Shown one piece after another: positions 2,635-19,557 of a stretch of 64,000 nucleotides of DNA. This stretch comes from Haloprofundus halophilus (GTDB lineage: Archaea; Halobacteriota; Halobacteria; Halobacteriales; Haloferacaceae). Positions within the stretch are counted from its first letter, which is position 1, and each line of letters starts with the position of its first letter. Below the pieces are notes generated by a model. The model was given only the letters and a program-made list of their open reading frames with translations, ran no database searches and was not told where the DNA came from. Made by a program: the position numbers and the translations under genes. The stretch covers positions 372,001 through 436,000 of the forward strand of contig NZ_QQRR01000002.1 in NCBI RefSeq assembly GCF_003439925.1, read 5' to 3'.

Positions 2635-3381
2635 ATGCACCTCGCAGACGCACTCGCTGCACGCGAGAGGATGACCTGCGTCGCCGGCGCGGGCGGCAAG
2701 AAGACGACGATGTACGCGCTGGCCTCGCGCCTCGACCGGGCCGTCGTCACCGCGTCGGTCCGCATCCCGATTCCGTCGCTCGAAGAGAATGTAGAGACGG
2801 TCGTCGTCACCGACGACCCCATCGGTGCGCTCGGAGAAACGACAGCCGACGACTTTCCGCTCGGCCTCGTTCCCGGGAAGGCCGACGAGGTGCGGTATCA
2901 CGGCTACGAGAACGAACTGCTCGATAGTCTCGCCGCAGCGCACGACGGGCCAGTCGTCGTCAAAGCCGACGGCGCGCGGATGCGCGATTTCAAGGCCCCG
3001 AGCGACAGGGAACCGCAGATTCCGAAGACGACCGACACGGTTCTGCCCATCGCCAGCGCGCACGTCGTCGGCGAACCGCTGGACGAGAATCTGGTCCACC
3101 GACCCGAGCGAGTAGCCGAAATCGCCGGAATCGGCACCGGAGACACGATTACGACGGAGACGGTCGCGGCCGTCCTCGCCAGCGACGACGGCGGGTTGAA
3201 GCGCGTTCCCGAGGGAGCGACGGCGATTCCGGTCGTGAACAAAGTCGACGACGCGGAACTTGCGGACGTAGGCCGCGACATCGCCTCGAAGGTGCTGGAG
3301 CGCGCGGGTGACCGCGTAGAGCGTGTGGTGCTCGCGCGGATGAACCGGGAGGATGCGGTAGTCAACGTGGTGGAACGCTGA
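2635..3381 (+). CDS. yqeC: YqeC-family selenium/molybdenum cofactor protein
   Basis: A 248-aa protein with an N-terminal nucleotide-binding loop (AGAGGKKTTM, about residues 18-27). The YqeC-type core follows, with VVVKADGARMRDFK about 110 residues in and VVNKVDD near residue 200. YqeC proteins are associated with maturation of selenium-dependent molybdenum hydroxylases, although the exact reaction is not settled. It sits beside mobA in a convergent pair and 0.8 kb before an AOR-like gene, so the context is molybdenum/tungsten enzyme maturation. Confidence 0.88.
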   Translation: MHLADALAARERMTCVAGAGGKKTTMYALASRLDRAVVTASVRIPIPSLEENVETVVVTDDPIGALGETTADDFPLGLVPGKADEVRYHGYENELLDSLAAAHDGPVVVKADGARMRDFKAPSDREPQIPKTTDTVLPIASAHVVGEPLDENLVHRPERVAEIAGIGTGDTITTETVAAVLASDDGGLKRVPEGATAIPVVNKVDDAELADVGRDIASKVLERAGDRVERVVLARMNREDAVVNVVER

Positions 3382-3394
3382 CTGCGTTTTGGCC

Positions 3395-4006
3395 CTACGA
3401 CAACTCCGCGGCCGCCTCTTCGAACTCCTCGCGCGTGTTCAGGTTCTCGAACGTCCGCAACTCCCCGTGTTCCGCAATCTCGGTCTCGTCGACGACGACG
3501 TAGTCCAGCTCGAACAGCGGGTCGACGACCTTCCGCGCGCCCGCTTCGAGCGCCGCCTCGCAGGCATCGGCCATCGCGGTCGCTCGGTAGACGGCGTGCG
3601 TCGTCTGGAACCACTGGTCGTCTAACTGCGGTACAGCGGCGTCGTGACCCTCGGCGCGCTCGAACAGGTACGAGACGACGCCGGGGTCGACGAACGGCAT
3701 GTCGCAGGCGACGACGACGGCGTACTCGCCCGAGGCGGCGCGGAGGCCGGTTCGAATCCCCGACACCGGCCCCTGGTCGGGCGTCTCGTCCTCGGCGACG
3801 GAGACCGGACGCGGGTAGCTCTCGAACGCGTCGAGAATCGCCGCGCGCTGGTCGGCGCGGCAGTTGACGACGAGTTCGTCGACGACGCCCGCCAGTCGGT
3901 CGCCGACGCGGCGAATCATCGGCGTTCCGGCGAGGTCGGCGGTCGCTTTGTCGGCGTCGCCGAAGCGGGTCGACCGGCCGCCGGCGACGATGACTCCCGT
4001 GCGCAT
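3395..4006 (-). CDS. mobA: Molybdenum cofactor guanylyltransferase MobA
   Basis: A 203-aa nucleotidyltransferase that transfers GMP from GTP to molybdopterin, giving the MGD cofactor used by enzymes such as the formate dehydrogenase at 13252. The N-terminal signature VIVAGGRSTRFGDADKA is the GTP-binding loop, and ACDMPF near residue 100 is the metal-binding motif. I start it at the ATG at 4006 because MRTGVIVAGG is the family N-terminus. The frame extends 39 residues further upstream, but that part is arginine-rich and overlaps the opposing promoter. It converges with yqeC across 13 bases. Confidence 0.92.
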   Translation of the reverse strand: MRTGVIVAGGRSTRFGDADKATADLAGTPMIRRVGDRLAGVVDELVVNCRADQRAAILDAFESYPRPVSVAEDETPDQGPVSGIRTGLRAASGEYAVVVACDMPFVDPGVVSYLFERAEGHDAAVPQLDDQWFQTTHAVYRATAMADACEAALEAGARKVVDPLFELDYVVVDETEIAEHGELRTFENLNTREEFEEAAAELS

Positions 4007-4134
4007 GCGTGGCGGTTCGAGAGCGCGGGACATGCCTCTTGCGCCGGTCGGCGAACGCTCCTCGGACCGCCCTTCGTCGCCCGGACTGCCGCCCCGCCAA
4101 CGTTTATTGCCGTGAAGAATCATTTATAAACCAG

Positions 4135-6006
4135 ATGGCGACGCCCACGCGCGACGCGGTGCTGCGGGTGGACCTCTCGGCGGAGACCGTCGAGAGAGCG
4201 CGCGTCCCCGACGAGTGGCGACGCGGCTACCTCGGCGGGAAGGGGTTGGGCGCGCGTTACCTCTACGCGGAGCTCGCACCCGGCGTCGACCCGCTCGGTC
4301 CCGACAACCTCCTCTCGTTCGTGCTCGGCCCGCTATCGGGGTATCTCCCGGGTGAGACGCGCTACGCGGCGGTGACGAAGTCGCCGCTCACCGGCGGTTT
4401 TCTCGACTCCTACAGCGGCGGGTCGTTCCCCGAACGCCTCGCCGGGTCGCTCGACGACTGTCTCGGAGTCCTGGTCACCGGACGCGCCAGTCGGCCGGTG
4501 GCGCTCGTCGTCGACGGCGGCACGGCGACGATAGAACCCGCCGACGACTTGTGGGGCTGCGACACCGTCGAGACGGACGCGGCGTTTCCCGACGCCGCCG
4601 TCGCGTGCATCGGGCCGGCCGGCGAGTCCGAAGTCGCCTACGCGACCATCGCCTCCGACGGCGGCGACCACCACGCCGGACGCGGCGGCGCGGGCGCGGT
4701 GATGGGGTCGAAGCGACTGAAGGCCGTCGTCGCCCGCGGCGACGCGCCCGAGATACCGCCAGCGCTCGCGGAACTGCGCGACCGGTACGAACGTCGCTAC
4801 GAAGACCACGACACGGGACGCTGGCAGGCCGCGGGCGAGACCTTGGAGAGCGTCGACTTCGCCAACGAGGTCGGCGTCCTCGCCACCGAGGGCTGGCAGC
4901 GCGGCCAGTTCGACGCGGCCGAGAACATCGGCATCGAGGCGGCGCGCGAGGCGGCGGTCGGCCGCGAACGCGACACGGAGACCGCACCCGGCGGCTTCCG
5001 CGTCCGAACCGGAGACGACGAGGGCGAGGGCGAGAGCGTCCCGCGCGGGGCGACGCCGATGACGCTCGGTGCCGGACTCGGCGTCGAGGAGTTCGACGCC
5101 GTCGCGTCGCTCGGCGAGACGTGCGACCGCCTCGGCGTCGACGTCATCAGCGCCGGCAACGCCGTCGCGTGGGCTATCCGCGCCGCCGACGCCGGCCTCG
5201 TCGAGACCGACGCCCGCTTCGGCGACGACGAGGCGGCCCGCCGACTGCTCGACGCAATCGCCGCACGCGACGGCGAACTGGCCGACGCGCTCGCCGAGGG
5301 CGTCGCCGACGCCGCGGCGCGCTACGGCGGCGACGACCTCGTCCCGACGGTCAAGTCGATGGAACTGCCGTCGTACGACCCTCGTGGCGCGATCGGGATG
5401 GCGCTGGCGTATGCGACGAGCGACCGAGGGGCCTGCCACCGCCGAGCCAGACCGGTCGAGCGCGAGGTGTTCGAGGCGTGGGACGACGCCGACGTGGTCG
5501 AGGCCGTCGCGGGCGCACAGACCGTCCGCTCCGTCCTCTGGAGCCTCGTCGCTGACGACTTCGTCGGCGAGACGATGTGGAACGACCTCGGCGCGGCGTG
5601 GCTCGACGCGGTCGGACTACCGCACGACGCCGACGAACTGAGCCGAACCGGCGAACGAATCTGGACGCTCGTCCGCCTGTTCAACGTCCGCGAGGGGTTC
5701 GACCGGAGCGACGACGCGCTCCCGGAGGCGCTTCGCCGACCGCTCTCGGAGGGCCCCGCCGCCGGACGCGCCGTCGACCCCGAGGCGTTCGAGCGACTGC
5801 TCGACGCCTACTACGCCGCCCGCGGGTGGGGCCCCGACGGTCGCCCGACCCGGGCGACGGTCGAGCGACTCGGCCTCGGCGGCATCGTCGACGAGGCGAC
5901 GCCGCTGGCCGAGGAGGCGACGACGACGAACGCGGGGCGCGACACGACGACCGTCGCGGACCGCCGACACGACCGACACGACCGACACGACACAGATGAC
6001 AGATAG
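4135..6006 (+). CDS. AOR-like protein lacking the iron-sulfur ligands
   Basis: A 623-aa member of the tungsten-pterin aldehyde:ferredoxin oxidoreductase fold family. The pterin-binding parts are recognisable: GGKGLGARYLY near the N-terminus, VTKSPLTGGFLDSYSGG, AGRGGAGAVMGSKRLKAVV, CDRLGVDVISAGN and SDRGACHRRA. The C-x2-C-x3-C motif and the later cysteine that hold the [4Fe-4S] cluster are absent, and only five scattered cysteines remain. The ATG at 4135 follows a TTTATT element (4102-4107) at leaderless spacing. It overlaps the next gene by 11 bases. The substrate and electron partner cannot be inferred. Confidence 0.85.
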   Translation: MATPTRDAVLRVDLSAETVERARVPDEWRRGYLGGKGLGARYLYAELAPGVDPLGPDNLLSFVLGPLSGYLPGETRYAAVTKSPLTGGFLDSYSGGSFPERLAGSLDDCLGVLVTGRASRPVALVVDGGTATIEPADDLWGCDTVETDAAFPDAAVACIGPAGESEVAYATIASDGGDHHAGRGGAGAVMGSKRLKAVVARGDAPEIPPALAELRDRYERRYEDHDTGRWQAAGETLESVDFANEVGVLATEGWQRGQFDAAENIGIEAAREAAVGRERDTETAPGGFRVRTGDDEGEGESVPRGATPMTLGAGLGVEEFDAVASLGETCDRLGVDVISAGNAVAWAIRAADAGLVETDARFGDDEAARRLLDAIAARDGELADALAEGVADAAARYGGDDLVPTVKSMELPSYDPRGAIGMALAYATSDRGACHRRARPVEREVFEAWDDADVVEAVAGAQTVRSVLWSLVADDFVGETMWNDLGAAWLDAVGLPHDADELSRTGERIWTLVRLFNVREGFDRSDDALPEALRRPLSEGPAAGRAVDPEAFERLLDAYYAARGWGPDGRPTRATVERLGLGGIVDEATPLAEEATTTNAGRDTTTVADRRHDRHDRHDTDDR

Positions 6007-6853
6007 CATCGACCTCGACGAACTGGACGTATCGACCGACAGCGACGCGGAGCGGCCCAAACGCGGCGACTGGTTCTGGAAGGGCGAAGGCGACCCCGAC
6101 GACGAGACGGGGACCGACGGGTCGGGCGACGACGCGGTCGGGTCGTCGGACGCGGTCGGGTCGTCGGACGCGGTCGGGTCGTCGGACGCGGTCGTGTCGC
6201 CTAATTCGCCCGACTCACTCGACGGCGACGCCACCCTGACGGACTCGGGGGGCGATACCGGGACGGACCACCGCGCGATTCCGCGCGTGCCGCGAACCAA
6301 CGACGACAGTCCGGTCGGCATCCCCATCGAGGGCGGGGGCGCGGGAGGCGCGGCGTCGGGGACCGTCGACGCCGACGACGCGGGCGGCGACGACGGCGAA
6401 GACGGTGAGGACGACGACGTGGAACCGGAGCCGACGGGACCGCACGGGAGCGGACCCTCCGAGATGACGATGGCGCTGACGTACGAAGCCGTGAAACGGC
6501 TGGAGAACCCGGCGGCCGCCTTCGCCGACGCGGAGGGGTGGACCGACTGGGTCGGCATCGTCGGCGACGTAGACGCCCACGTCATCACCAAGTTCCAGCG
6601 CGAGTCGGTCGTCGACGTCGACTTCTTCAACGGCACCGGCACCGGTCCGGCGGAACGACTCGCCGGTATCGACGGCCACTCGATGTTCTTCGCCGAGCGG
6701 ATGGTCGTCGTCGGCGTCGCGGGCGTCGACGAGTACGTCGCCGAGGAGAGCGGGTGGGAGTTCGTCCCGCTGGAGACCGCCGCCGAGAAGGCCGGGTGGC
6801 CGCTCGTCGACCGAGACGGCGACGAACGCGAAGAACGCGACGGGGGGCGGTGA
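5996..6853 (+). CDS. Hypothetical acidic protein with a conserved C-terminal domain
   Basis: The 285 residues form two parts. Residues 1-155 are a disordered Asp/Gly/Ser-rich region that includes a DAVGSS tandem repeat. Residues 158-275 are a compact domain (MTMALTYEAVKRLENPAAAFADAE, then WVGIVGDVDAHVITKFQRE) that I take to be a conserved haloarchaeal family of unknown function. The ATG overlaps the end of the AOR-like gene by 11 bases, so translation is probably coupled and the proteins may act together. Confidence 0.75.
   Translation: MTDSIDLDELDVSTDSDAERPKRGDWFWKGEGDPDDETGTDGSGDDAVGSSDAVGSSDAVGSSDAVVSPNSPDSLDGDATLTDSGGDTGTDHRAIPRVPRTNDDSPVGIPIEGGGAGGAASGTVDADDAGGDDGEDGEDDDVEPEPTGPHGSGPSEMTMALTYEAVKRLENPAAAFADAEGWTDWVGIVGDVDAHVITKFQRESVVDVDFFNGTGTGPAERLAGIDGHSMFFAERMVVVGVAGVDEYVAEESGWEFVPLETAAEKAGWPLVDRDGDEREERDGGR
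6131..6199 (+). repeat. 18-bp tandem repeat inside the coding sequence
   Basis: Three perfect consecutive copies of GACGCGGTCGGGTCGTCG (6131-6184) are followed by a partial fourth copy. They encode DAVGSS repeats in the disordered region of the 5996 gene. The repeat keeps the frame, so copy-number change would only alter linker length. Confidence 0.9.
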
Positions 6854-6988
6854 GGCCGACGCGGGTGACGAGGGCGACGCGGGTGGCAAGACTGACGCGG
6901 GTGGGGAGGCCGACGACGCAGCGAAATCCAGCGATACCTGACGGACGCACGTACATTTTTGTGATATCGACACGCATTAGCACGCAGC

Positions 6989-7255
6989 ATGAGCCTCAGA
7001 AACGGTTTCCGCCAGTCGTGGGTGCTCACGTTCGGCATCGTCGCCGCGATGGCGTGGTTGACACTCACCGCGGTACGGGTGTTCTCGCTCGTCGAGTCGC
7101 CGCTCACGTGGGCGACGCCGACCGCCGGGACGGGCGCGATGGGCGGTCTCGTCGGTCTCGTCGTGATGGCCGTCTTCGTCGGCGTCCTGTTAGTGCTGTT
7201 CAGCGAACTCGGCGAGTCCGACCCCGCGCCGAGCACGTGGCCGCCGGAGAAGTGA
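6989..7255 (+). CDS. Small membrane protein, 88 aa
   Basis: It has two hydrophobic segments, at about residues 12-30 and 50-71, with a short polar C-terminus (GESDPAPSTWPPEK). No family is recognised. It is the first gene of a tight three-gene cluster: the stop at 7253-7255 is one base from the start of the zinc-ribbon gene, which in turn overlaps the 7400 gene. Confidence 0.8.
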   Translation: MSLRNGFRQSWVLTFGIVAAMAWLTLTAVRVFSLVESPLTWATPTAGTGAMGGLVGLVVMAVFVGVLLVLFSELGESDPAPSTWPPEK

Positions 7256-7256
7256 G

Positions 7257-7403
7257 ATGACGCAGTTCGAGTGCACCGAGTGCGGTCAACTCGGTCGGTT
7301 CGGCCGCTTCGACGAGTCGACGCTGACGATGCGCTGTCCGGTCTGCGAAAAGCAGACGGCCTGGACCGTCGCGTTCGCCGACGAGGGGGGTGTGTCGTTT
7401 TGA
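7257..7403 (+). CDS. 48-aa zinc-ribbon microprotein (two CxxC)
   Basis: The frame begins MTQFECTECGQLG and carries two zinc knuckles, CTEC (about residues 6-9) and CPVC (about residues 27-30), the pattern of haloarchaeal CPxCG-type small zinc-finger proteins. The ATG is one base after the preceding stop. Its TGA at 7401-7403 lies within a TTGA overlap with the next gene. Such microproteins are often regulators or adaptors, but no specific function can be read from the sequence. Confidence 0.8.
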   Translation: MTQFECTECGQLGRFGRFDESTLTMRCPVCEKQTAWTVAFADEGGVSF

Positions 7404-7738
7404 CGCTCGCCGTCCCGCTCTCGGAGCGGTTCCGCGAGGCGGCCGAGGAGTGGGCCGACACGCGCCTCATGGACCCCGAGGACGCCTGCGAAGTGAAAGC
7501 CGAACAGGCGCTCTTGGAGGTCGAACACCTCGTCTCCGGCGCGCACGAGGTCGAGTTCGCGGTTGAGGACGGCGAACTTCGCTACGAACCCAGCGACGAA
7601 CTGGCGGCGCTGCTCTCGTCGCACGCGGAGCGAACGGGCGTCGACGAGGCGACGGTGCTCGGTCTCCACGTCGACCTGTTCGCCCGCGTCTTCCTGGACG
7701 ACGACGCGAAACGGCCCTCGAACGCCCCGCCGAAGTGA
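7400..7738 (+). CDS. Hypothetical protein, 112 aa, probable TTG start
   Basis: An acidic soluble protein that begins TLAVPLSERFREAAEEW after a TTG start at 7400. The start overlaps the microprotein's stop by 4 bases, the usual coupling geometry in this genome. A longer frame runs upstream to 7271, but it would overlap the zinc-ribbon gene entirely and is arginine-rich, so I reject it. The C-terminal ~60 residues are regular alpha-helical sequence (TGVDEATVLGLHVDLFARVF). The function is unknown. Confidence 0.7.
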   Translation: MTLAVPLSERFREAAEEWADTRLMDPEDACEVKAEQALLEVEHLVSGAHEVEFAVEDGELRYEPSDELAALLSSHAERTGVDEATVLGLHVDLFARVFLDDDAKRPSNAPPK

Positions 7739-7804
7739 GCCGCGCGTCCCGTCGAACCCTCGACCGAGGCACGCTCCGCCACACGAACTATTAACACGAC
7801 GCAC

Positions 7805-7819
7805 TGCGAACCGTTCGCA
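7805..7819 (+). promoter_or_regulatory. Operator-like inverted repeat TGCGAA-N3-TTCGCA
   Basis: A perfect 6-bp inverted repeat with a 3-base spacer ends one base before the ATG at 7821. A TATA-like ACTATTAAC (about 7788-7796) lies some 28 bases before that ATG, so the palindrome sits between TATA box and start, a usual repressor position in archaea. The same half-sites at the same distance occur before the gene at 19701. Confidence 0.7.
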
Positions 7820-7820
7820 C

Positions 7821-8009
7821 ATGGCGAAGAAGGACAGCGGGTGGCGACCGACGGCGGCGATGGACGAGTACAAAGGCCACGCCGTCTGGGAGTACGAGAC
7901 CGGTCCACAGGAGATCAACCAGGGCGAAGTCGACGGCAAGCCGGTGTTCTCGCGGGAACTGAAATCGAAACTCGGTCTCCTCGACGACGACGTCGAGCCG
8001 ACGGAGTGA
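7821..8009 (+). CDS. Small conserved-looking protein, 62 aa
   Basis: A 62-aa soluble protein, basic at the N-terminus and acidic at the C-terminus, beginning MAKKDSGWRPTAAMDEYKGHAVWEYETG. It has its own promoter and an operator-like palindrome right at the start (7805-7819). The ATG at 7821 fits a leaderless transcript. No family is assigned. The shared operator suggests common control with the small membrane protein at 19701. Confidence 0.75.
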   Translation: MAKKDSGWRPTAAMDEYKGHAVWEYETGPQEINQGEVDGKPVFSRELKSKLGLLDDDVEPTE

Positions 8010-8046
8010 GGCCGGCGGCGGCCGACGACCACTTTTCTGCGACGGC

Positions 8047-9282
8047 TCAAAGCAGCGGGAACGAGCGGTCGTTCCGCGCGGGGACGTAGAAGTTCGCCCG
8101 CGAAGTGACGCGGACGAAGTTGAGGATGCCGTTGTGTTCGCGGTCGGTTATCGCCGGACTGTCGTCGCGGACGTACCAGCCGTTCATCGCCTTGCGCGTC
8201 CGCCGGAAGTCGTCGAGTTTCCGCTGGAAGGCGACGAAGTGGACGCCGGGCTTCCCGCCGTCGACGGTGTTGAAGTCGCGCCGGAGCACCAGCGGTTCGT
8301 CGGTGTCGTCGCGGCGGACCTGCGCGACTTTCTCGTGGTGGCCGACGACGTCGTGGTCGCGGGCGTGTTCGCGGACCCGGTCGGAGAACGGGACGTCGTC
8401 GGTGAGGTTCGCCACGTCGTCTTCGGTGAACTCCGGCGAGAACATCCGCTGGATGCGCTCCCGCTCGGTCAACGCGCCGTACCAGTCGCGGAGGTTCACC
8501 GTCAGCCGACTGAGGTGCATCGTCGTCCCGTCGACGAACCGCCCCTCCGGGATGGCGACGCTCTCTTCACTCGGTTGGGTCCGCTTGCGCCCCGAGAAGA
8601 AGCCCATGAACATCTGCTCCTCGCCGGTCAGCGCGTCGCCGGGGACGCCCTCGGCGTCGGCGTGTTCGGCCGGGAGCCCCTCGCCGAGGAAGCCGGTCCG
8701 GCGGCCGCGGACGCGGAACACGTCGCCGAGGCGGTGGTCGACCGGTTCGCCTCCGATTCGGCTCCGGGAACCGAACAGCGCGTTCTCGGCGGCCGCGAGG
8801 TTCGACGGCAGGTCGCTCTCCAAGACGAGCGCGGCGTCGAACGACTGGAGGTTCGGTTCGTCCGTCCGCGACAGCACCTGCGGCGGCGAGACGGGGACGC
8901 GCGAGAGTTCGTCGATACGCTCGAAGTAGTTCGTCCCCCACGCCAGCGCGTGGAACAGTCCCTCGTGGTGCCAGTCGTACGCCGCTTCGAGCGTCCGCAT
9001 CGCACGCTCGACGGTTCGTGCGTCTTCGACCGAGGGGTCTCGACGCAGGTCGAGGAGGAGCACGCGGCGGTACCGAGCCTGCAACTCGTTGCCCGAGTCG
9101 TCGGTCGGGAGGTACTCGCCCTGCGCGAACTGGCGGTCCGGGAGGCGGTCGCTCCGCGGGTTGGCGGCGAGTCCCTCGACGCCGGGGCCGGTCGCCGGGT
9201 CCAACAGACGGCTACACCCCGCGAAGCCGGCGGCTCCTGTCACGACTGCGAGGCGACTGAGCGCAGTGCGTCGGGAGACCAC
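8047..9282 (-). CDS. Tat-exported lipoprotein, possibly DyP-peroxidase-like
   Basis: The protein begins with a twin-arginine signal (VSRRTALSRLAVV) followed by a lipobox ending in FAGC, so it should be exported folded and anchored as a lipoprotein. The mature ~390 residues resemble the haloarchaeal DyP-like Tat lipoprotein group (DUF7405-type, from memory). I cannot confirm the haem-ligand motif of true DyP peroxidases. The GTG at 9282 places the RR motif at the N-terminus, and a TTG at 9315 would add 11 residues. The opposing small-membrane-protein genes begin 130 bases away. Confidence 0.75.
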   Translation of the reverse strand: MVSRRTALSRLAVVTGAAGFAGCSRLLDPATGPGVEGLAANPRSDRLPDRQFAQGEYLPTDDSGNELQARYRRVLLLDLRRDPSVEDARTVERAMRTLEAAYDWHHEGLFHALAWGTNYFERIDELSRVPVSPPQVLSRTDEPNLQSFDAALVLESDLPSNLAAAENALFGSRSRIGGEPVDHRLGDVFRVRGRRTGFLGEGLPAEHADAEGVPGDALTGEEQMFMGFFSGRKRTQPSEESVAIPEGRFVDGTTMHLSRLTVNLRDWYGALTERERIQRMFSPEFTEDDVANLTDDVPFSDRVREHARDHDVVGHHEKVAQVRRDDTDEPLVLRRDFNTVDGGKPGVHFVAFQRKLDDFRRTRKAMNGWYVRDDSPAITDREHNGILNFVRVTSRANFYVPARNDRSFPLL

Positions 9283-9411
9283 GGTATCTGTGTACTGCAG
9301 TGGCGGCGTTCGCAAAAAACTGTCTGTCGGTTCGGTACACTGTCACGTCTGCCGTTCGAAACTCCCATCGACCGTACATTTATTCGCTCGCTCGCACAAC
9401 CTCCGTCAACG

Positions 9412-10285: not shown

Positions 10286-10915
10286 CTACGAGACCATCTG
10301 CGCGACGAGTTCGTCTTCGAACTCGACGAGACCGTCGAAGACGAGCGCCGCCGCCCGGAACAGCGGTTCCTCCGTCTCGTCGAGCACGTCGTCGACGAAC
10401 GCCTCGTGCCACGCGGACAGATGCTCGTCGAGGAAGACGCGTTCGTAGCCGAACGCCTCCTCGGCCCCGTGGTACTGTCGTTCGACGAGGTAGCGCAGGA
10501 ACGCGAGTTCGACGGCGATGAAGTCGTTCTCCTCGCCGTACTCCTCGGGGGGTTTCCAACCGGCGGCGCCGTAACTGGCTTCGACTCTCGCGAGCCCCTC
10601 GCCGATGAAGTCGGTGTCCGCGCGGTAGTACGTCTCGTGCGCCAGGACGGGCGGACGCGGTCCGACGAACACCCGCGTGTACTCTCGCGCCAGGTCGTCG
10701 CGGACCGCCGCCGGGTCGCGGCCCTCGTTGTCGGCGACGAACTGTCGAAGCAGGTCGAACCCCTCGTCCAACGACTCGTTCACCTCCGCGTCCGGCAGCT
10801 GGAGGCCGTCGCCGAGCAGGTTCGAGAGGAGCGACTCGTCGGGGACGTCCCAGAACACCTCGACGACGAAGTCCAGCAGTTCGAGGCGGGCGTCGTAGAC
10901 GGCGGCGTCGTCCAT
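10286..10915 (-). CDS. TorD/DmsD-family redox-enzyme maturation chaperone
   Basis: A 209-aa all-helical protein of the TorD family. It contains the family-type segment RVFVGPRPPVLAHETYYR (about residues 86-103), a halophile version of the LFxGPxxPxxxPYESxY motif. These cytoplasmic chaperones bind the Tat signal and assist cofactor insertion for molybdenum enzymes. Its ATG overlaps the stop of the HdrA/MvhD-like gene by one base (TGATG), and the Tat-exported formate dehydrogenase catalytic subunit is divergently encoded, which is the likely client. Confidence 0.85.
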   Translation of the reverse strand: MDDAAVYDARLELLDFVVEVFWDVPDESLLSNLLGDGLQLPDAEVNESLDEGFDLLRQFVADNEGRDPAAVRDDLAREYTRVFVGPRPPVLAHETYYRADTDFIGEGLARVEASYGAAGWKPPEEYGEENDFIAVELAFLRYLVERQYHGAEEAFGYERVFLDEHLSAWHEAFVDDVLDETEEPLFRAAALVFDGLVEFEDELVAQMVS

Positions 10916-13041
10916 CACCGGCCACCTCCGTGTTCGAACAGCAGCCCGGCGCGACAGTCCCCGCAGTAGTCGAAGACGCTCGCGTCGGCGTTCGGCGCGA
11001 CGCCTTCGACCACGTCGCCGACTTCGCCTTTCACCTTCTCGATGGAGCCCCGACTGGCGAACGGCTTCCCGCAGCGGACGCACTCGGCCATCTCGCCCTC
11101 GTACACCGTCTCCCAGCGCTCGCCGCCGTTGCGCTCGGGGAGTCGAGAGAGGTCCAACCCCGTCTCGATGGTGATGGCCGTCTCCGGACAGCCCTCCTCG
11201 CAGAGCCCGCAGTTGACGCAGTCCTCGTGGCTGAACTGTAGGTCGCCGTCGGCCGTCCGCCGGATGGCGTCGGTCGGACAGAGCGTCGAACAGGTCGGCG
11301 TGAGGTTGCACGCGTCGCTCACCGCCATCAGTCCGAACGTCTCCAGCCCCCGAATCACGTCCCGGTCGGGGTCGGCGCGGTCGACGATGGCTCGAACGCT
11401 CTCCAGCGCCCAGTCGTGGGTGTTGAACGCCGGGTTCGGCTTGTCGTCGCGGACGACGCCCGTCGCGCGGTGTTCGCCCGCCGGAACCGGCGTCTCCGAG
11501 AGGCCGTCGACGAACCCTTCGACCGCTTCGACGAACGACTCGTGGTCGTCGGGGCCGGGCGCGAAGAACCCGACGCGCTCGCCGAGGCCGAGGTCGGCCG
11601 TCGCGCGGTTCAGCCGCTCGACGAGTTCGGCTTTCGGGTCCGGCCCGGAGTGCAGACAACTGTCCCCGCAGCCGACGATGGCGACGCCGTCGGCCCCCGC
11701 AGCGAGCGCGTGCAGCACGTGCGCTTCGCCGACGGTGTCGGTGCAGTTCACGGAGACGGGCAGGATGGGCGGGTAGGTGAGGTCGGTACCGCTGGCGGCG
11801 CGGCGGCCGTAGGCGCGGAGCGCGTCGGCGGCGCGCTCCGAACAGACGAACGCGATAACCGGCGTCTCGATTCCCTTCTCACCCCGGCTGAACAGCCAAC
11901 CGCCGCCCTGCTCCTCGACGTCGAGAAGGGCTTCGACCTCGCGGGCGAGGCGCTCGTTCGAGGGTTCGCGGAGCATCGTCGCGCCTGTCGGGCAGGCGCT
12001 CGTACACGCGCCGCAGTCCTGACACGCCACCTCGTCGAACTCGACGGAGTCGACGGTCGGTCGCCGGACGGCGTCGTGGGGGCAGGCGTCGGTACAGGCG
12101 GTACAGCCCCGCTGGCTCGACTCGCCCGCGGCGCAGACGTCCAGCTCCAAGTCGAGATACTTCGGTTTCGTGACGCCGCCGAGGAGACTCTCGACGGCCG
12201 CGACGGTTCCGGCGTCGACGGGGCCGGTGTAGAAGCCGAGTCGGCCGCCGCGGGCGACCGAGGGCGAGTCGGGGGAGACCACCTGGTCGGCGTCGATGGT
12301 TCGTTCGACGCCCGAGCGGTCGATGGCGTCGGTCGGACAGCACTCCTCCCACTCGCCGCCGGGAGCCTCGGGGTCGACGTCGACGGGGTAGCGCGTCAGC
12401 ATCCCGCCGGGCCCCTCCTTCACGCACTTCATGCAGGAGACGCAGTCCTCCGTCACCTCCGCTCGGAGCGTCACCTCGAACTCGCCGAACTCGCCCTCGA
12501 CGCCGACGACGCGGCCGCGTTCGACGGTCACGTCCGAGAGGTCGGCGTCGACGCCGTGGAAGTCGCGACCGTCGGCGACGAGCGTCACCTCGGCGGAGTC
12601 TGCGAGCGCGGCGGCCGTCTCGGCGTCGCCGACGACGACGACGGCGTCGCCGGCCTCGCCCGTGACGGTTCGGGTCGCCGCCTCGTGTTCGAGTCCGGCG
12701 CGGCGCGCGTTCAGCAGACGAGCGGTCTTGTCCGTGGCCGCGTCGCGCTCGTGAACCCACCCCGCGCCCGCGCGGTGGTCGACGAACGAGGTGGCCTCCG
12801 GGTGGAGGCCTTTCTCCTCCGCGAGCGCGCGGAAGCGCCGTTGGCAGCCCGAATCCGGGGCGGTGACGAGCAACTGGTCGAGTTCGTACTCGTCGACGAG
12901 TTGCGCCATCGCGGGGAGGCCGTCCTCGCACAGGAGCGTCGAACTGGCGACGACGTCCACGTCGCGGACGCCGTCTCGCGCGCGTTCCAGGTCGATGTCG
13001 CAGGTGTCGCCGCACGAGCAGACGAAAGCGCCGACGTTCAT
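10915..13041 (-). CDS. HdrA-like/MvhD/polyferredoxin fusion protein
   Basis: A 708-aa electron-transfer protein in five parts. Residues 1-120 match the HdrA N-terminal domain (GAFVCSCGDTCDID, cysteine at 38, GC at 65-66, GWVHERD). Residues 128-195 are a short remnant where HdrA carries its FAD domain. Ferredoxin cysteine clusters lie at about 200-235, 303-320 and 340-350. An MvhD-type domain occupies 394-465, with Cys400, 433, 458 and 462. Two more clusters lie at 578-588 and 608-619, then paired CxxC at 654-657 and 693-696. The start is at MNVGAF (13041). The divergent formate dehydrogenase suggests it accepts or relays those electrons. Confidence 0.85.
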   Translation of the reverse strand: MNVGAFVCSCGDTCDIDLERARDGVRDVDVVASSTLLCEDGLPAMAQLVDEYELDQLLVTAPDSGCQRRFRALAEEKGLHPEATSFVDHRAGAGWVHERDAATDKTARLLNARRAGLEHEAATRTVTGEAGDAVVVVGDAETAAALADSAEVTLVADGRDFHGVDADLSDVTVERGRVVGVEGEFGEFEVTLRAEVTEDCVSCMKCVKEGPGGMLTRYPVDVDPEAPGGEWEECCPTDAIDRSGVERTIDADQVVSPDSPSVARGGRLGFYTGPVDAGTVAAVESLLGGVTKPKYLDLELDVCAAGESSQRGCTACTDACPHDAVRRPTVDSVEFDEVACQDCGACTSACPTGATMLREPSNERLAREVEALLDVEEQGGGWLFSRGEKGIETPVIAFVCSERAADALRAYGRRAASGTDLTYPPILPVSVNCTDTVGEAHVLHALAAGADGVAIVGCGDSCLHSGPDPKAELVERLNRATADLGLGERVGFFAPGPDDHESFVEAVEGFVDGLSETPVPAGEHRATGVVRDDKPNPAFNTHDWALESVRAIVDRADPDRDVIRGLETFGLMAVSDACNLTPTCSTLCPTDAIRRTADGDLQFSHEDCVNCGLCEEGCPETAITIETGLDLSRLPERNGGERWETVYEGEMAECVRCGKPFASRGSIEKVKGEVGDVVEGVAPNADASVFDYCGDCRAGLLFEHGGGR

Positions 13042-13093
13042 ACCCACGACAACTCGTAGCACCCACGAAAGCCTTTGCGTGCCAACAATCCGC

Positions 13094-13105
13094 TACCATA
13101 CGGTA
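13094..13105. promoter_or_regulatory. Candidate operator TACC-N4-GGTA in the divergent formate dehydrogenase promoter
   Basis: TACCATACGGTA forms a 4+4 inverted repeat about 53 bases upstream of the HdrA-like start and about 147 bases upstream of fdhA. The 210-base divergent region also holds AT-rich CGTAATTTAATGG (about 13142-13154). Both are plausible control elements. The half-sites are short and could arise by chance. Confidence 0.35.
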
Positions 13106-13251
13106 ATCTCGCCCGCGGAACGGGTTAATGGGACATTCCTCCCGTAATTTAATGGTCTTTGCTAGCAGATATCTTACCAACGCATGCGCCCACGACGAAA
13201 ACGAGGCGAGTCGAATCGGGACGAGAGAACGACCGAACGAGACACTCAGGA

Positions 13252-16200
13252 ATGAGCACAGAACCGGTTTCGCTGGACTTGGACAGGCGGTCCTTCCTCA
13301 AGGCGAGCGCGCTCGCGGGTGCCGTCGCTCTCGGCGGGGGCGGTGCCGGACAGGCGCTCGCCCAGAGCGAGGAGGGTGAGACGGACGGCACCGACACGGA
13401 GGGGGAACTGACGAAGACGATCTGCAACTTCTGCGCGGTCGGTTGCGGCTTCCGCGCCGAACGGAAGGGCAACGCGTTCGTCGGACAGGAGCCCTGGCAC
13501 GAGAACCCCATCAACAACGGGTCGCTCTGCTCGAAAGGGGCGGCCATCTACGGGAGCGAACACTCGCCGAAGCGGCTGAAACATCCGCTGAAGAAGGTCG
13601 ACGGCGAGTGGCGGAAGATCTCCTGGTCGCAGGCGTACGACGAGATCGCGAGCGAACTCGAGCGCATCCGCGAAGAGTACGGCCCGGACAGCACGATGTG
13701 GCTCGGCAGCGCGCACCACTCCAACGAGGAGGCGTACGCGTTCCGGAAACTCGCGTCGCTGTACGGGACGAACAACTGCGACCACCAGGCGCGCATCTGC
13801 CACTCGACGACGGTCGCCGGCCTCGCGAACACGTGGGGCTACGGCGCGATGACGAACACTATCAACGACTACCGCAACTTCGACCTCAACATCATCATCG
13901 GGCAGAACCCCGCCGAGGCGCACCCGATTGCGATGCAGCACATCCTCGAAGGCCAGCGTCGCGGCGGCACCATCGCCTCCGTCGACGCGCGCTTCACGAA
14001 GACGTCGGCGCACGCCGACCACTTCTACCGCATCCGCCCGGGGACGGACGTGGCGCTGATGATGGGGCTGATGTACTACCTGCGCGAACAGGACGAACTC
14101 GACCGGGAGATGCTGAACGGACGGGTGAACGGCTGGCCGGACATCGACCGCAACCTCGACCAGTACGACCTCGAAACCGTCGCCGACATCACGTGGATAA
14201 GCGAGGAACAGATACAGGAGTTGGGCGACCTCGTCATCGAGAACAAGCCGAACGTCCAGATAGAGTGGGCGATGGGCGGCACCCAGCACAACAACGGGAC
14301 GCAGAACATCCGGTCGTACGCGCTGGCGAGTCTCGCCTCCGGCAGCGCCGCCCGCAGCGGCGGCGGCCTGCAGGTGATGCGCGGGCACGCGAACGTCCAG
14401 GGGGCGACCGACCTCGCGGTTGCGAGCCACATCCTGCCGGGCTACTACTCGGTGTCGTCGGCCGGGTCGTGGCAGTACTGGGCCGACGTCTGGTCGCAGA
14501 GTCCGTACACGAGCGGCAGTATCAGCTTCCGCGAACTGTACGACCGCTACGACCTGATGCCGAGCGATCAGTACGCCCGACAGGACGAGTACGTCAACTA
14601 CGACAAGTCGTCGAACCCCGACGAATCCAGCGCCGCGGGCCCGAGCGACGACGAAATCGACGACTCGTTCCCGAGCGAGCGCTCGATGATGTTCCAGAAC
14701 GGGCTGACCGTCGCCCGGTGGTTCGACGCCGCGCTCCCGCAGGAACAGCGACTCAACGAGACGCCAATCTACCAGCCGAACCCGGTGAAGGCGGCGTTCT
14801 TCTGGGGCCACTCGGCGAACTCCATCAGCGAGATGGAGCAGATGCGCGACGGGATGGACCTGCTCGACTTGCTGGTCGTCGTCGACGTGTTCCCCTCGCT
14901 GGCGTCGGTGATGGCCGACCGCTCCGACGGCGTCATCATCCTCCCGGCGGCGAGTCAGTACGAACACTACCGTTCGCTGACGAACTCCCACCGGTCGGTG
15001 CAGTGGAGCGACCCGGTTCGCAACCCCTCGCACAACACGAAACCCGACCTGCAGATAATGCAGGAACTCGCCGACCGACTCGGCTTCGGCGACCACTTCG
15101 ACTGGGGAACCGGCCCCGAACTGTACAGCGGCAAAAGCACGTATCAGGACGTGCTCCGGGAGATCAACCTCGGCGTTCGAACCATCGGCTATCAGCAGGA
15201 CCCCGAGCGACTGGAGAGCCAGCGCGAGTACGACTGGGCGTTCAGCACCGAGGACCTGAAGGCGACCCAGGGGCCGCACGAAGGCGAGTTCTGGCAACTC
15301 CCGTGGCCCTGTTGGGGCGAGGGCCACCCCGGCACGCCCATCATCTGGACCGACGACTTAGACCCCAACGAGGGCGGCCACGACTTCCGCGCCCGGTGGG
15401 GGACGACCGCGCCGAACCCGCAGGAGTGGAACGAGATGACGACGCCCTCGCAGGACTACCCGCTCCGAGCGACGTTCGACCAGCAGGGCGAGGAGGGGTT
15501 GAACCTGCTTCGCGACTCGTTCAACCCCGACTGGTGGAACGGGTCGGGGCCGATTCGCGGCGTCCCGCAGTATCCCGGCTTCACGACGACGCTGCCCGAA
15601 GATTTGGAGAACGCCGACGCGCCGAACCTCCCGACGCGGTACGCGCTCGACCCGACGAAGTCGGTGCTCGACGCCGCGCGTGACATGAACGAGCGCTTCG
15701 ACTGGGCGGAGTTCGACCTCGACGACTACCGCCCCTACGACTTCAAACAGCCGGACCCGCCGACGGGTCGGGCGAAGGCTCGCGCGGTCGCGTGGAACTT
15801 CCTCGACCCGATTCCGGTCCACCGCGAACCCATCGAGAGTCCGCGACCGGACCTCGTCGAGCGGTGGCCGGCGAACGGCCAGCAGCGGAACTTCTACCGC
15901 CTCGACCAGGACAACGCGACGGTCCAGGAAGATGCGACGCGGAAAGCCGCCGAGAACGGCTTCGACGTCATCATGACGACGGGACGGCAGGTCGAACACC
16001 AGGGCGGCGGCTCCGAGAGCCGCTCGAACATCTTCCTGGCGGACCTGCAACCGCACATGTACGCCGAGATAACGCCGAACATGGCCGAGGAACTCGGCGT
16101 CGACGGCGGTGACCTGGTCGTCGTCTCGACGACCGACCGCGGATCGATTCTCGTGAAGGCGCGGGTGACGAACCGCCCGAACGACCGCGAGACGTTCCTC

Positions 16201-16497
16201 CCGTTCCACTGGGGCGGCGTCTGGCGCGGCAAGAGCTTAGAGGAGCGCTACCCCGACGGGACGGTACCGTTCGCGCTGGGCGACAGCGTGAACCTCATCA
16301 CGTCGAAGGGGTACGACGTCGAGACGCAGATGCAGGAGACGAAGGCGGCGATGGTGAAGGTGCGGCCGGCGACGCAGGAACTCGTCGACGAACTCAACAT
16401 GGGCGTCGACCTGTCGGCGCTGGAGTTCCCGCAGGACCGCGACAACGTCGGGACGCAGAAGGACTTCGACGTCCGCGACTCGAAAACCGTCCAATGA
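13252..16497 (+). CDS. fdhA: Formate dehydrogenase catalytic subunit (Tat-exported, cysteine form)
   Basis: A 1081-aa molybdopterin oxidoreductase that oxidises formate to CO2 outside the membrane. The Tat signal DRRSFLK is at residues 11-17. The N-terminal [4Fe-4S] ligands are Cys58, Cys61, Cys65 and Cys93. The active-site run ARICHSTTVAG places Cys183 followed by His184 where FdnG-type enzymes have selenocysteine-His. The C-terminal pterin-binding domain (about 940-1060) includes TTGRQVEHQGGGSESR. The ATG at 13252 gives the Tat N-terminus; the upstream frame extension is rejected. It is the first gene of a four-gene operon. Confidence 0.92.
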   Translation: MSTEPVSLDLDRRSFLKASALAGAVALGGGGAGQALAQSEEGETDGTDTEGELTKTICNFCAVGCGFRAERKGNAFVGQEPWHENPINNGSLCSKGAAIYGSEHSPKRLKHPLKKVDGEWRKISWSQAYDEIASELERIREEYGPDSTMWLGSAHHSNEEAYAFRKLASLYGTNNCDHQARICHSTTVAGLANTWGYGAMTNTINDYRNFDLNIIIGQNPAEAHPIAMQHILEGQRRGGTIASVDARFTKTSAHADHFYRIRPGTDVALMMGLMYYLREQDELDREMLNGRVNGWPDIDRNLDQYDLETVADITWISEEQIQELGDLVIENKPNVQIEWAMGGTQHNNGTQNIRSYALASLASGSAARSGGGLQVMRGHANVQGATDLAVASHILPGYYSVSSAGSWQYWADVWSQSPYTSGSISFRELYDRYDLMPSDQYARQDEYVNYDKSSNPDESSAAGPSDDEIDDSFPSERSMMFQNGLTVARWFDAALPQEQRLNETPIYQPNPVKAAFFWGHSANSISEMEQMRDGMDLLDLLVVVDVFPSLASVMADRSDGVIILPAASQYEHYRSLTNSHRSVQWSDPVRNPSHNTKPDLQIMQELADRLGFGDHFDWGTGPELYSGKSTYQDVLREINLGVRTIGYQQDPERLESQREYDWAFSTEDLKATQGPHEGEFWQLPWPCWGEGHPGTPIIWTDDLDPNEGGHDFRARWGTTAPNPQEWNEMTTPSQDYPLRATFDQQGEEGLNLLRDSFNPDWWNGSGPIRGVPQYPGFTTTLPEDLENADAPNLPTRYALDPTKSVLDAARDMNERFDWAEFDLDDYRPYDFKQPDPPTGRAKARAVAWNFLDPIPVHREPIESPRPDLVERWPANGQQRNFYRLDQDNATVQEDATRKAAENGFDVIMTTGRQVEHQGGGSESRSNIFLADLQPHMYAEITPNMAEELGVDGGDLVVVSTTDRGSILVKARVTNRPNDRETFLPFHWGGVWRGKSLEERYPDGTVPFALGDSVNLITSKGYDVETQMQETKAAMVKVRPATQELVDELNMGVDLSALEFPQDRDNVGTQKDFDVRDSKTVQ

Positions 16498-16506
16498 GGT
16501 GATACG

Positions 16507-17175
16507 ATGGCCACAAACAACACGAACGAAACGAAGATGTCACAGGGTGTCATGAGCGTCGGCGAGGACGCGCGAATCTTCCCCGACGTGGAGGCGTGTA
16601 TCGACTGCGGCGGCTGCGTCGTCGCCTGTAAACGGACGTGGGACGTCCCGCGGGACGAACAGCGAATCAGCATCTCGACGATGCTCGAAGGCGAGGAGGC
16701 GGCGGCGGGACTCAACGCCCACAGCGCGAAGGCGCTCAGGCAGGGCCAGAACCCCGGCGAGACGAGCGTGCCGATGCAGTGTTACCACTGCGAGAACGCA
16801 CCGTGCGTCTCGGTCTGCCCGACCGACTCGCTGTTCAAGAAGGAGAACGGGTTCGTCGAGGTCCGCGACGACCTCTGCGTCGGCTGTCAGTACTGCCTGT
16901 CGGCGTGTCCGTTCGGCGCGCCGCAGTTCCCCGACGCCGACGAGGGCGCGGCGAAACTGTTCGGCACCGGCGGCACGATGGACAAGTGTACGATGTGCGA
17001 GGAACGCCAGGACGTCGGCAAGGGTCCGGCCTGCGCCGAGGAGTGCGCCACCGACGCGCTCCTCGTCGGCACCGCCGGTCAGATAGCCGAGGAACTCGAC
17101 AAGCGCGGTAGCGCGTCGTTCTTCAACTCGGAGGCGATGGAGATCATCTTCGGCGAAGACGCGGAGGCGTTCTGA
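16507..17175 (+). CDS. fdhB: Formate dehydrogenase iron-sulfur subunit
   Basis: A 222-aa ferredoxin-like subunit with four cysteine clusters: CIDCGGCVVAC, CYHCENAPCVSVC, CVGCQYCLSAC and CTMC with later CAEEC. This is the DmsB/FdnH-type layout that passes electrons from the catalytic subunit to the membrane cytochrome. It lacks its own Tat signal, so it is presumably exported with fdhA. It starts 9 bases after fdhA, and its stop overlaps the next ATG (TGATG). Confidence 0.92.
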   Translation: MATNNTNETKMSQGVMSVGEDARIFPDVEACIDCGGCVVACKRTWDVPRDEQRISISTMLEGEEAAAGLNAHSAKALRQGQNPGETSVPMQCYHCENAPCVSVCPTDSLFKKENGFVEVRDDLCVGCQYCLSACPFGAPQFPDADEGAAKLFGTGGTMDKCTMCEERQDVGKGPACAEECATDALLVGTAGQIAEELDKRGSASFFNSEAMEIIFGEDAEAF

Positions 17176-17636
17176 TGAGCCGCTCGCTGCCGGAGACGCG
17201 CGACTACAGCGGGCTGGCCATCGCCGTCAACGCCCTCGTCGCGATCGCGGTCACCGCCGTCGTCGTCTGGTGGGCGTCGGGGTTCGCGTACAACGCCGAG
17301 ACGCTGTTCCGCGTGGCTCCGACCGTCGAAGCCGGCGGTATCGGCGCCGACTGGCGCGCCGGGAACACGATTCCGGCGCTCGACTTCCTCATCGCGTTCA
17401 TCCACGCCGCCGACGTGTTGATGGGACTCGGCATCCTCGTCATGTTGTTCGTCCACTGGGGCGCGTTCCGCCGCCTCGCCTCGCGGATGCGACAACCCGG
17501 CGAGACGGCGCGCTACGACTCGGACGCGGACGCCGTCGCCGACGGTGGTCGGACGGCGGCCGACGCGACCGCGGCCGCCGACGGGTCCGTCGACACCGAT
17601 GGTTCCCCCGGTGACCGAGGGGGTGACGGCCGATGA
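17175..17636 (+). CDS. Extra membrane protein of the formate dehydrogenase operon
   Basis: The 153-aa protein has two hydrophobic segments, at about residues 13-35 and 70-92, and a disordered Asp/Ala/Gly-rich tail from about residue 112. It lies between the iron-sulfur and cytochrome genes with overlapping starts and stops on both sides, so it belongs to the operon. No counterpart is present in the classical three-subunit enzyme. It may be an additional membrane anchor or assembly factor; the family is not recognised. Confidence 0.8.
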   Translation: MSRSLPETRDYSGLAIAVNALVAIAVTAVVVWWASGFAYNAETLFRVAPTVEAGGIGADWRAGNTIPALDFLIAFIHAADVLMGLGILVMLFVHWGAFRRLASRMRQPGETARYDSDADAVADGGRTAADATAAADGSVDTDGSPGDRGGDGR

Positions 17637-18646
17637 CGAACTTGGACCACGGGAAGTTCACCCGGATGACGACGACGTTCCACACGCTCTTGGCGCTGGA
17701 CGTGTTCATCCTGTTCTTCTCGGGCTACGGCCTGATGTTCAACGACGAACTCTGGTGGCTCGTCACGCTGATGGGCGGTAGCACCGGCGTGACGGCGGTC
17801 CACCGCATCGCGGGACTGGCCCTCGTCGCGCTCATCGTCTTCTGGGTGCTGATGATGCTGACGACGAGCACCGGCCGCGGCAACTTCCGCGAGATTCTGA
17901 TGGGTCCCGACGACGTCGCGGCGGCGATTCAGGACTTCAAGTTCGTCCTCGGGATGGCCGACGAGCGCCACCCGAACGCCCGGCAGTTCGCGGGCTACAA
18001 GTCCGACGACGTGCCGCTACTGTCGTACATCGGCAAGGGCGTCATCTACATCTTCTCCATCGAACTGACGCTGCTCACCATCTCCGGACTGCTCATCTGG
18101 AGCAAGACCGGCGTGATGCAGTACTTCGCCACGAAGACGGCGGCGATGGCGTTCGTCGTCTTCCACGGCCTGCTCGGCGTCATCATGCTGATGGGCGTGA
18201 TGTTCCACATCTTCGAGCACGGTTTCCACCCGGCGTTCTACCCGGTGGAGGTGAAGGCGTTCATCCCCCGGAAGCTGATTCCGGAGGAGCACGCCGACAC
18301 CGACCACGACTCGACGGGTATCAGCCAACTCACCCTCGCGCCGTCGTGGGGGTGGGCGACGAACGTCATGGGCGTACTCACCGTCATCGGTATCGTCAGC
18401 GTGCTCGTCGGGAGCATCTTCGACGAGGGCTACCCCGTGCCGCGCGAACTCGTCGTCGGCGGGGGTCCGACGGACCTGCTCTTGACCGTCGGCATCAACG
18501 TCGGCATCCTCGTGCTGTTCATCGGCATGGCGCTGCAGATGTACGGCAACCTGCTTCGCGTCCGCTGGCAGAAGCAGCTGGAGCAGGAGGCGCGCGCGAC
18601 GGCGACGACGGACGGTGGACAGGTGAATCAGCCGAACGACGACTAG
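17633..18646 (+). CDS. Formate dehydrogenase cytochrome b subunit
   Basis: A 337-aa membrane protein of the FdnI/FdoI type that carries two b haems and passes electrons to the quinone pool. The histidines are in the expected places: His17 and His57 in the first two helices, and His178 and His192 or His196 in a later helix pair (VVFHGLLG, MFHIFEHGFH). The C-terminal part has two further membrane segments (about 240-262 and 280-302), making it longer than the bacterial subunit. The ATG overlaps the preceding stop (ATGA). Confidence 0.88.
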   Translation: MTNLDHGKFTRMTTTFHTLLALDVFILFFSGYGLMFNDELWWLVTLMGGSTGVTAVHRIAGLALVALIVFWVLMMLTTSTGRGNFREILMGPDDVAAAIQDFKFVLGMADERHPNARQFAGYKSDDVPLLSYIGKGVIYIFSIELTLLTISGLLIWSKTGVMQYFATKTAAMAFVVFHGLLGVIMLMGVMFHIFEHGFHPAFYPVEVKAFIPRKLIPEEHADTDHDSTGISQLTLAPSWGWATNVMGVLTVIGIVSVLVGSIFDEGYPVPRELVVGGGPTDLLLTVGINVGILVLFIGMALQMYGNLLRVRWQKQLEQEARATATTDGGQVNQPNDD

Positions 18647-19155: not shown

Positions 19156-19557
19156 TTACGCCGAGAGCAACTCCGCGCCCTCGGTGGAGAGTTCGACGGT
19201 CACGTCCTGTCTGGTGTGCTGGCTGATCTGGTCGATGTTGCGCGTCAGCACTTCGAGGACGTCCTTCGGTTCGGGGTAGACGAGCATGTTGCCGTCGTCG
19301 TCCTCCATGACGAGTTGGGTGTCCGAGAGCGAAATCTGGTCGTTCTCGATGCGGGCGACGATGGCGCGCAGTTCTTCGGCGCCGCCGGGGTCGCCCTCCT
19401 CGACCATCGTCACGTACAGCGAGTCGAGACCGATGAGGTCCTTGTACTCGCGGACGCGGCGGGCGCAGCGCACCATATCCTTCGTGACGGCCGTCTTCTG
19501 CGGGTTGCCGTGTTCGCCCTCGAAACAGTGCTTGCACACCCGGAGTTCCATCCGCAT
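19156..19557 (-). CDS. Conserved hypothetical protein with N-terminal CxxC, 133 aa
   Basis: A soluble acidic protein beginning MRMELRVCKHCFEGEHGN. The CKHC pair plus nearby His/Cys may bind a metal. The C-terminal half is a mixed alpha/beta domain (DTQLVMEDDDGNMLVYPEPKDVLEVLTRNIDQIS). An ACATATATC sequence about 28-35 bases upstream fits a TATA box. It stands alone, and its function is unknown. Confidence 0.8.
   Translation of the reverse strand: MRMELRVCKHCFEGEHGNPQKTAVTKDMVRCARRVREYKDLIGLDSLYVTMVEEGDPGGAEELRAIVARIENDQISLSDTQLVMEDDDGNMLVYPEPKDVLEVLTRNIDQISQHTRQDVTVELSTEGAELLSA

Follow-up and report, generated by a model that had tools for sequence, protein, structure and literature searches.

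Within the window, the 64,000-nucleotide stretch of the Haloprofundus halophilus genome analysed here, one open frame on the reverse strand encodes a 708-aa protein for which we use the working name HDL. The gene overlaps by one base the gene of a TorD/NarJ-family chaperone, and the pair is transcribed divergently from fdhA, fdhB, a gene for a small membrane protein and a cytochrome b gene, as the initial annotation had recognized in placing HDL divergent from a formate dehydrogenase (FDH) (Table 1). The promoter region between HDL and fdhA spans positions 13042-13251. FdhA carries a Tat signal and, judged from this sequence, is presumably exported, whereas an export signal is absent from the HDL sequence, and HDL should therefore stay in the cytoplasm. 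Elsewhere in the window are genes for an AOR-family tungsten oxidoreductase (4009-6006, +), an acidic DUF7124 protein (5996-6853, +) and a DUF7405 protein related to Dyp-type peroxidases (8047-9315, -); a Dyp-type gene is also found near HDL in Haladaptatus (L040). Just beyond fdhC lies a gene for a conserved protein of ~132 aa that starts MRMELRVCKHC and has no Pfam match (19156-19557, -); the same type of gene is directly upstream of HDL in all four haloarchaeal loci in which TorD is not adjacent.

Table 1. Features of the HDL locus, given as positions in the window, and MRMELRVCKHC-type genes, given as positions in their own loci.
Feature	Position	Strand	Basis or remark
HDL, flavin-less HdrA-MvhD-polyferredoxin-rubredoxin-like protein	10915..13041	-	708 aa open frame
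HdrA N-terminal domain, residues 1-115; C8, C10, C38, C66 (C61 in other orthologues)	12697..13041	-	probable [4Fe-4S] site
First FAD-domain remnant, residues 125-198; GxGxxG loop lost (VGDAETA)	12448..12669	-	alignment, hhalign
Reduced inserted ferredoxin, residues 199-240; C200, C203, C206, C235	12322..12447	-	holds a single cluster; most other archaeal members have two
Second FAD-domain remnant, residues 245-300; ~250 HdrA residues missing after it	12142..12309	-	alignment with true HdrA, hhalign
Ferredoxin module 2, residues 301-360; eight cysteines, counterpart of the HdrA C-terminal ferredoxin	11962..12141	-	domain search and alignment
MvhD/FlpD domain, residues 395-515; C400, C433, C458, C462	11497..11859	-	PF02662, E 6e-18
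Ferredoxin module 3, residues 572-626; T581 replaces second Cys of first motif in main haloarchaeal clade	11164..11328	-	Pfam, alignment
Rubredoxin-like CxxC..CxxC tail, residues 640-700, as in HycF	10942..11124	-	PDB 7z0s_F match; four Cys invariant in all aligned members
TorD/NarJ-family chaperone	10286..10915	-	PF02613, E 2e-25; one-base overlap with HDL end
fdhA, Tat-signal Cys-ligated formate dehydrogenase catalytic subunit	13252..16497	+	RRSFLKAS; RICH; RGHANVQG
fdhB, Fe-S subunit, nearest FDH3 beta	16507..17175	+	Pfam, NCBIfam
Small membrane protein conserved in fdh operon	17175..17636	+	locus comparison
fdhC, cytochrome b subunit	17633..18646	+	PF01292
MRMELRVCKHC-type protein	L069 8010-8408; L070 7699-8196; L071 10550-10948; L072 7420-7818		directly upstream of HDL

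In a comparison with PDB sequences (phmmer), HDL residues 1-113 matched the N-terminal domain of HdrA and residues 269-374 its C-terminal ferredoxin, and profile-profile alignment (hhalign) placed residues 1-287 on residues 1-357 of true HdrA with 99.1% probability (E 4e-19). With the PF02662 match and several Fer4 modules, these results bear out the original description of a single chain with an HdrA N-terminal domain, several ferredoxins and MvhD. In total HDL contains three ferredoxin modules and a rubredoxin-like CxxC..CxxC tail, and its C-terminal part (577-697) matches HycF in both NCBIfam and PDB. HdrA models of Pfam and NCBIfam match, but under their cut-offs, and the NF040770 score is 98.8 bits against a cut-off of 1100. 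HDL likewise falls outside the HdrA-MvhD fusions (type Ia, or HdrA2), the MvhD part being present and the HdrA part incomplete. Neither Pfam nor NCBIfam gave a DNA-binding or signalling domain in HDL, and Pfam gave no match to PF04216, the FdhE family.

The incomplete part is the flavin domain. Where true HdrA proteins of this phylum have GGGVAGIEAAL, the aligned HDL sequence reads VGDAETAAAL, and a single beta-alpha-beta stub is left at ~125-200. The ~30 residues that follow this loop in HdrA (VEKxPxIGGHM..NDCSIC) are missing by alignment and hhalign, the G.FGEFEVTL strand is retained, and before the next ferredoxin the second half of the FAD domain is short of about 250 residues. The initial annotation had described an FAD domain cut to ~70 residues without GxGxxG; the reduction and the loss of the motif are confirmed, but the remnant consists of two pieces, ~125-198 and ~245-300, flanking the reduced inserted ferredoxin. 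The loss is real but not special to Haloprofundus halophilus: the FAD-binding TrxR-like domain with GxGxxG is absent in the haloarchaeal orthologues, where the motif is gone and ~250 residues are missing, and the collapse is common to these orthologues, other Halobacteriota and the members in proteobacterial FDH3 operons. Judged from the aligned sequences, the collapse is ancient. Two HDL members of one other archaeal genus (L119 and L121) retain a GGGAVG loop and a TDCSFC segment and are likely, by their sequences, intermediates in the decay of the HdrA flavin domain. Since structure prediction with AlphaFold2, from only 8 sequences, gave a pLDDT of 37 and a pTM of 0.28, the absence of an FAD fold rests on sequence.

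Co-occurrence with HdrBC, which would have argued against a flavin-free protein, was not observed as judged by HdrB: its profile (TIGR03288) gave nothing above cut-off in the 242 halobacterial genomes or in the own genome, where the CCG-domain matches sit in frames of 582-1078 codons, whereas HdrB has ~290 positions. HDL derives from HdrA and has no flavin site, and is therefore not a bifurcating HdrA, in line with the proposal of a flavin-free, non-bifurcating derivative, which the sequence loss of the flavin site supports.

The metal ligands, by contrast with the flavin site, are kept. All HDL cysteines except C66 and C234 are present in at least 65 of the 74 close orthologues, most in 73-74, and because of this conservation HDL cannot be put down to chance, damage or a pseudogene. 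The CxC..C..C ligands of the HdrA N-terminal domain are conserved in HDL orthologues. Among 73 haloarchaeal sequences, 26 have C61 and 47 have C66, never both and never neither, although these are not 73 independent observations, because one clade-inherited swap could explain the pattern. The sequences suggest that the N-domain site (C8, C10, C38 and C61 or C66) is still occupied. Ligands of modules 2 and 3 and of the rubredoxin-like tail are conserved in all aligned haloarchaeal, other archaeal and bacterial members, apart from the T581 swap. The core ligands (N-domain, modules 2 and 3, tail) are thus kept across domains of life, whereas lineages differ in the inserted ferredoxin and in the MvhD cysteines, the latter being present in 74/74 close haloarchaeal orthologues and absent in bacterial and divergent haloarchaeal members. 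With its metal sites kept and the flavin lost, HDL is able to carry clusters or to transfer electrons one at a time.

Of 242 halobacterial genomes, about 65 have an HDL orthologue that is complete or almost complete in length; 60 of the 242 have a close fdhA relative, and HDL is present in every one of these. TorD is encoded on the same strand less than 200 bp from HDL in 71/75 haloarchaeal loci, a few of which may be one species taken from two collections. In the remaining loci (L069-L072) TorD lies more than 5 kb off or outside the stretch and HDL is near another Tat-signal FDH; in L069-L071 this FDH differs in its membrane anchor and has a TorD of its own at a greater distance. The partner can also be another enzyme, namely a Tat-signal Phs/Arr-like molybdoenzyme with an NrfD anchor instead of an FDH in L041, L073 and L074. 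In the Natronorubrum locus L041 (enzyme region 2990-8027, ars genes downstream), NCBIfam places PhsA over ArrA, neither at cut-off, and we call the enzyme Phs/Arr-like because the 'Arr' label rests on the neighbouring ars genes. An Mrp/ApbC-like Fe-S carrier is encoded directly downstream of HDL in these three loci and in L076, which is related to the Phs-type loci and has no visible enzyme; the assignment was Pfam-checked in L041 and made by matching start sequences in the other three. MobA-like genes lie near HDL in L041, L073 and L074. The aligned HDL-linked Mo/W enzymes carry Cys at the metal-ligand position, the alignment of such distant enzymes being approximate.

Several simpler rules of association can be rejected. 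An AOR homologue is found in 49 of the 67 long HDL loci, in L080/L081 directly beside HDL, and is absent from 18, Phs-type loci included; AOR is not a constant partner. That HDL follows FDH only is contradicted by the three Phs/Arr-like loci and by a hydrogenase in a further archaeal genome (G264, below). Nor does HDL serve every TorD client, as the own genome has its second TorD-family gene in a nar-type operon from which HDL is absent; L081 contains a further TorD operon, which has no HDL of its own and whose enzyme lacks the Cys ligand in the alignment. An Mrp-family gene is located near the NarJ-like gene of a nar-type operon of the own genome (L177, contig C3, 7309-11174), so that Mrp accompanies haloarchaeal molybdoenzymes outside HDL loci as well.

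Beyond the haloarchaea, searching the phylum with a profile brought up full-length HDL members in several other families, mostly in draft genomes. In nearly all other Halobacteriota loci read, a TorD-family gene adjoins HDL, and many contain a Tat-signal FdhA. The gene order is fdhD-HDL-torD in L141 and fdhABC, mobA, HDL, torD, cysteine desulfurase, fdhD, moaA, moeA in L152, with moaA/moeA on the other strand; tatC (Pfam-checked) and a TatA-like frame lie near the HDL/FDH cluster in L148, and a TatC-like frame is found in L146. In G264 (L147, 5042-10417), the neighbours of HDL are TatA and a [NiFe] hydrogenase that has a Tat signal and is accompanied by a HypB-type gene; this genome encodes a single short molybdopterin protein and, away from HDL, an isolated TorD, and contains no relative of FdhA. 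Eight annotated bacterial loci have an HDL homologue inside or next to a torD-containing FDH3 operon; the homologue and torD overlap in the beta-proteobacterium Variovorax, as in the window. Mrp/ApbC is encoded downstream of the homologue in 4/8, and AOR is absent from these loci. The bacterial members have homology to HDL over the full length, including the N-domain and the collapsed FAD domain (hhalign, 97.8% over 248 columns), at about 28-30% identity; the MvhD cysteines are lost, and the inserted ferredoxin is lost in most. HDL agrees with the FDH3-associated 4Fe-4S binding protein family in domain order, full-length homology and linkage to torD and an exported FDH. The tree has haloarchaeal, other-archaeal and bacterial groups, with several long branches. 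Over all loci, the maturation genes near HDL are those for Mrp/ApbC, FdhD, cysteine desulfurase, MobA, MoaA and MoeA, together with Tat genes.

FdhD was found in 0/242 halobacterial genomes, with 8/14 control genomes positive, and FdhE (PF04216) in 0/242, with the E. coli control positive. A 2023 review of molybdoenzyme maturation describes the halobacterial FDHs without FdhD as an unexplained case (PMC10609526). As a general explanation, HDL as a plain FdhD substitute was rejected, because FdhD is encoded in 27/28 other (non-halobacterial) HDL-bearing archaeal genomes and in some bacterial FDH3 neighbourhoods with an HDL homologue.

TorD-family chaperones keep Tat-enzyme precursors in the cytoplasm until their cofactors are inserted. 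As the relatives of HDL are almost always found beside a chaperone for exported metal enzymes, HDL is probably an assembly factor. On the basis of gene linkage we favour, as a probable though by no means secure reading, that HDL is a cytoplasmic Fe-S redox factor working with TorD to mature Tat-exported enzymes. HDL would go back to an HdrA(-MvhD) protein that lost its flavin site. TorD would hold the exported-enzyme precursor in the cytoplasm, and HDL would serve the TorD-bound precursor by supplying electrons and/or Fe-S clusters for cofactor assembly, after which the folded enzyme would leave via Tat. Most clients would be Cys-ligated Mo/W formate dehydrogenases; Phs/Arr-like enzymes, and perhaps one [NiFe] hydrogenase, would be others. 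Candidate steps are Fe-S loading, with regard to the Mrp neighbours, and sulfuration or reductive activation, with regard to the FdhD and cysteine desulfurase neighbours. We infer the cytoplasmic location of HDL, its binding to TorD or the apo-enzyme, and a chemical step that may be electron donation, cluster transfer, or reductive sulfuration or activation of the metal. The narrower proposal that formate dehydrogenase of haloarchaea receives its cofactor sulfuration or reductive activation from the HDL-TorD pair itself is rather unlikely. Observations that speak against a maturation role include the non-adjacent TorD in L069-L072 and the presence of Mrp in a nar-type locus without HDL.

The initial annotation had suggested an electron conduit or a redox sensor. 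A maturation role fits the neighbourhood better than either: FdhA has a Tat signal and is presumably exported while HDL has no signal, the constant neighbour is TorD, the MvhD cysteines are missing in some lineages, and other exported enzymes replace FDH. The strongest rival, to which we give a minor but appreciable chance, is a cytoplasmic wire in which the MvhD part takes electrons and HDL passes them between ferredoxin or an AOR-family W enzyme and some partner, on the model of the Bam, Flx or Hdr complexes minus bifurcation. The many Fe-S ligands in one chain would suit such a wire, and the invariant MvhD [2Fe-2S] cysteines of the close haloarchaeal orthologues suggest, as a counterpoint to a pure maturation role, an electron-input function there. 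A link of HDL with cytoplasmic W metabolism is possible because of the frequency of AOR genes in the long loci; this frequency and the AOR neighbours in L080/L081 also count in favour of the wire. However, the FDH is presumably exported and reaches quinone through FdhB and cytochrome b subunits of its own, the MvhD cysteines are absent in bacteria and divergent haloarchaea, and AOR is missing from 18/67 long loci and from the bacterial loci with annotation. A wire has no need of an adjacent TorD and explains neither this linkage nor the change of partner.

A redox or metal sensor, by which HDL would report the state of the cytoplasm and control fdh expression or assembly, is improbable. It would be compatible with the shared divergent promoter region and with the large number of redox centres, one of which has just three cysteines in the main haloarchaeal clade, but HDL has no DNA-binding or signalling domain in Pfam/NCBIfam, and neither the TorD overlap nor the change of partner enzyme is explained. 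That HDL is an active enzyme which binds FAD or another flavin non-canonically and bifurcates is hardly credible despite the HdrA homology of its N-terminal half and the loop kept in L119/L121, given the absence in haloarchaeal orthologues of GxGxxG, the segment after it and ~250 FAD-domain residues, and of any HdrB over cut-off in the 242 genomes.

The proposed maturation factor resembles several known systems. With HdrA of the type I soluble heterodisulfide reductase HDL has in common the N-terminal Fe-S domain, the start of the FAD domain and the inserted and C-terminal ferredoxins, and with the type Ia fusion (HdrA2) the fused MvhD; unlike both, it is without the FAD site, most of the flavin domain and HdrB, and has an extra ferredoxin, the rubredoxin-like tail and the pairing with TorD. 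Two archaeal HdrA surveys build their classes on the FAD/TrxR domain (PMC9012536, PMC12054007), and in the former all classes appear to retain the FAD residues. HycF of formate hydrogenlyase has the same C-terminal ferredoxin and rubredoxin-like region but is a subunit of a membrane enzyme, whereas HDL has HdrA and MvhD parts in front. FdhE has been proposed as a redox/Fe-binding cytoplasmic accessory of exported FDHs with CX2C motifs (PMC10609526), a role like that proposed here for HDL, with no detectable homology between the two. The '4Fe-4S binding protein' of bacterial FDH3 operons (with TorD, DUF3305 and DUF3306) has the same operon context, and an unnamed 'fer4' gene appears on bacterial operon maps of a TorD/DmsD survey (PMC4464133). 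In Shewanella, SO_4506, an 'iron-sulfur cluster-binding protein', showed RyhB-dependent changes similar to those of the chaperone FdhT and FdhAB (PMC5826389); by gene position, it is likely an HDL-family member. A search of the open-licence literature found no functional study of HDL or its bacterial homologue.

RefSeq names haloarchaeal HDL 'hydrogenase iron-sulfur subunit', and the bacterial gene is annotated '4Fe-4S binding protein'; in haloarchaea, the former name or an HdrA-like annotation should not be taken as evidence for bifurcation. HDL is a concrete candidate for the gap in haloarchaeal FDH maturation without FdhD (PMC10609526), and its bacterial relatives occur in genetically workable groups. 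If the maturation reading is true, a subunit of a bifurcating enzyme would have been turned into a flavin-free assembly factor, and if the sulfuration or activation reading of the HDL-TorD pair is true, a flavin-less HdrA would have become an activation factor of molybdo- and tungsto-enzymes.
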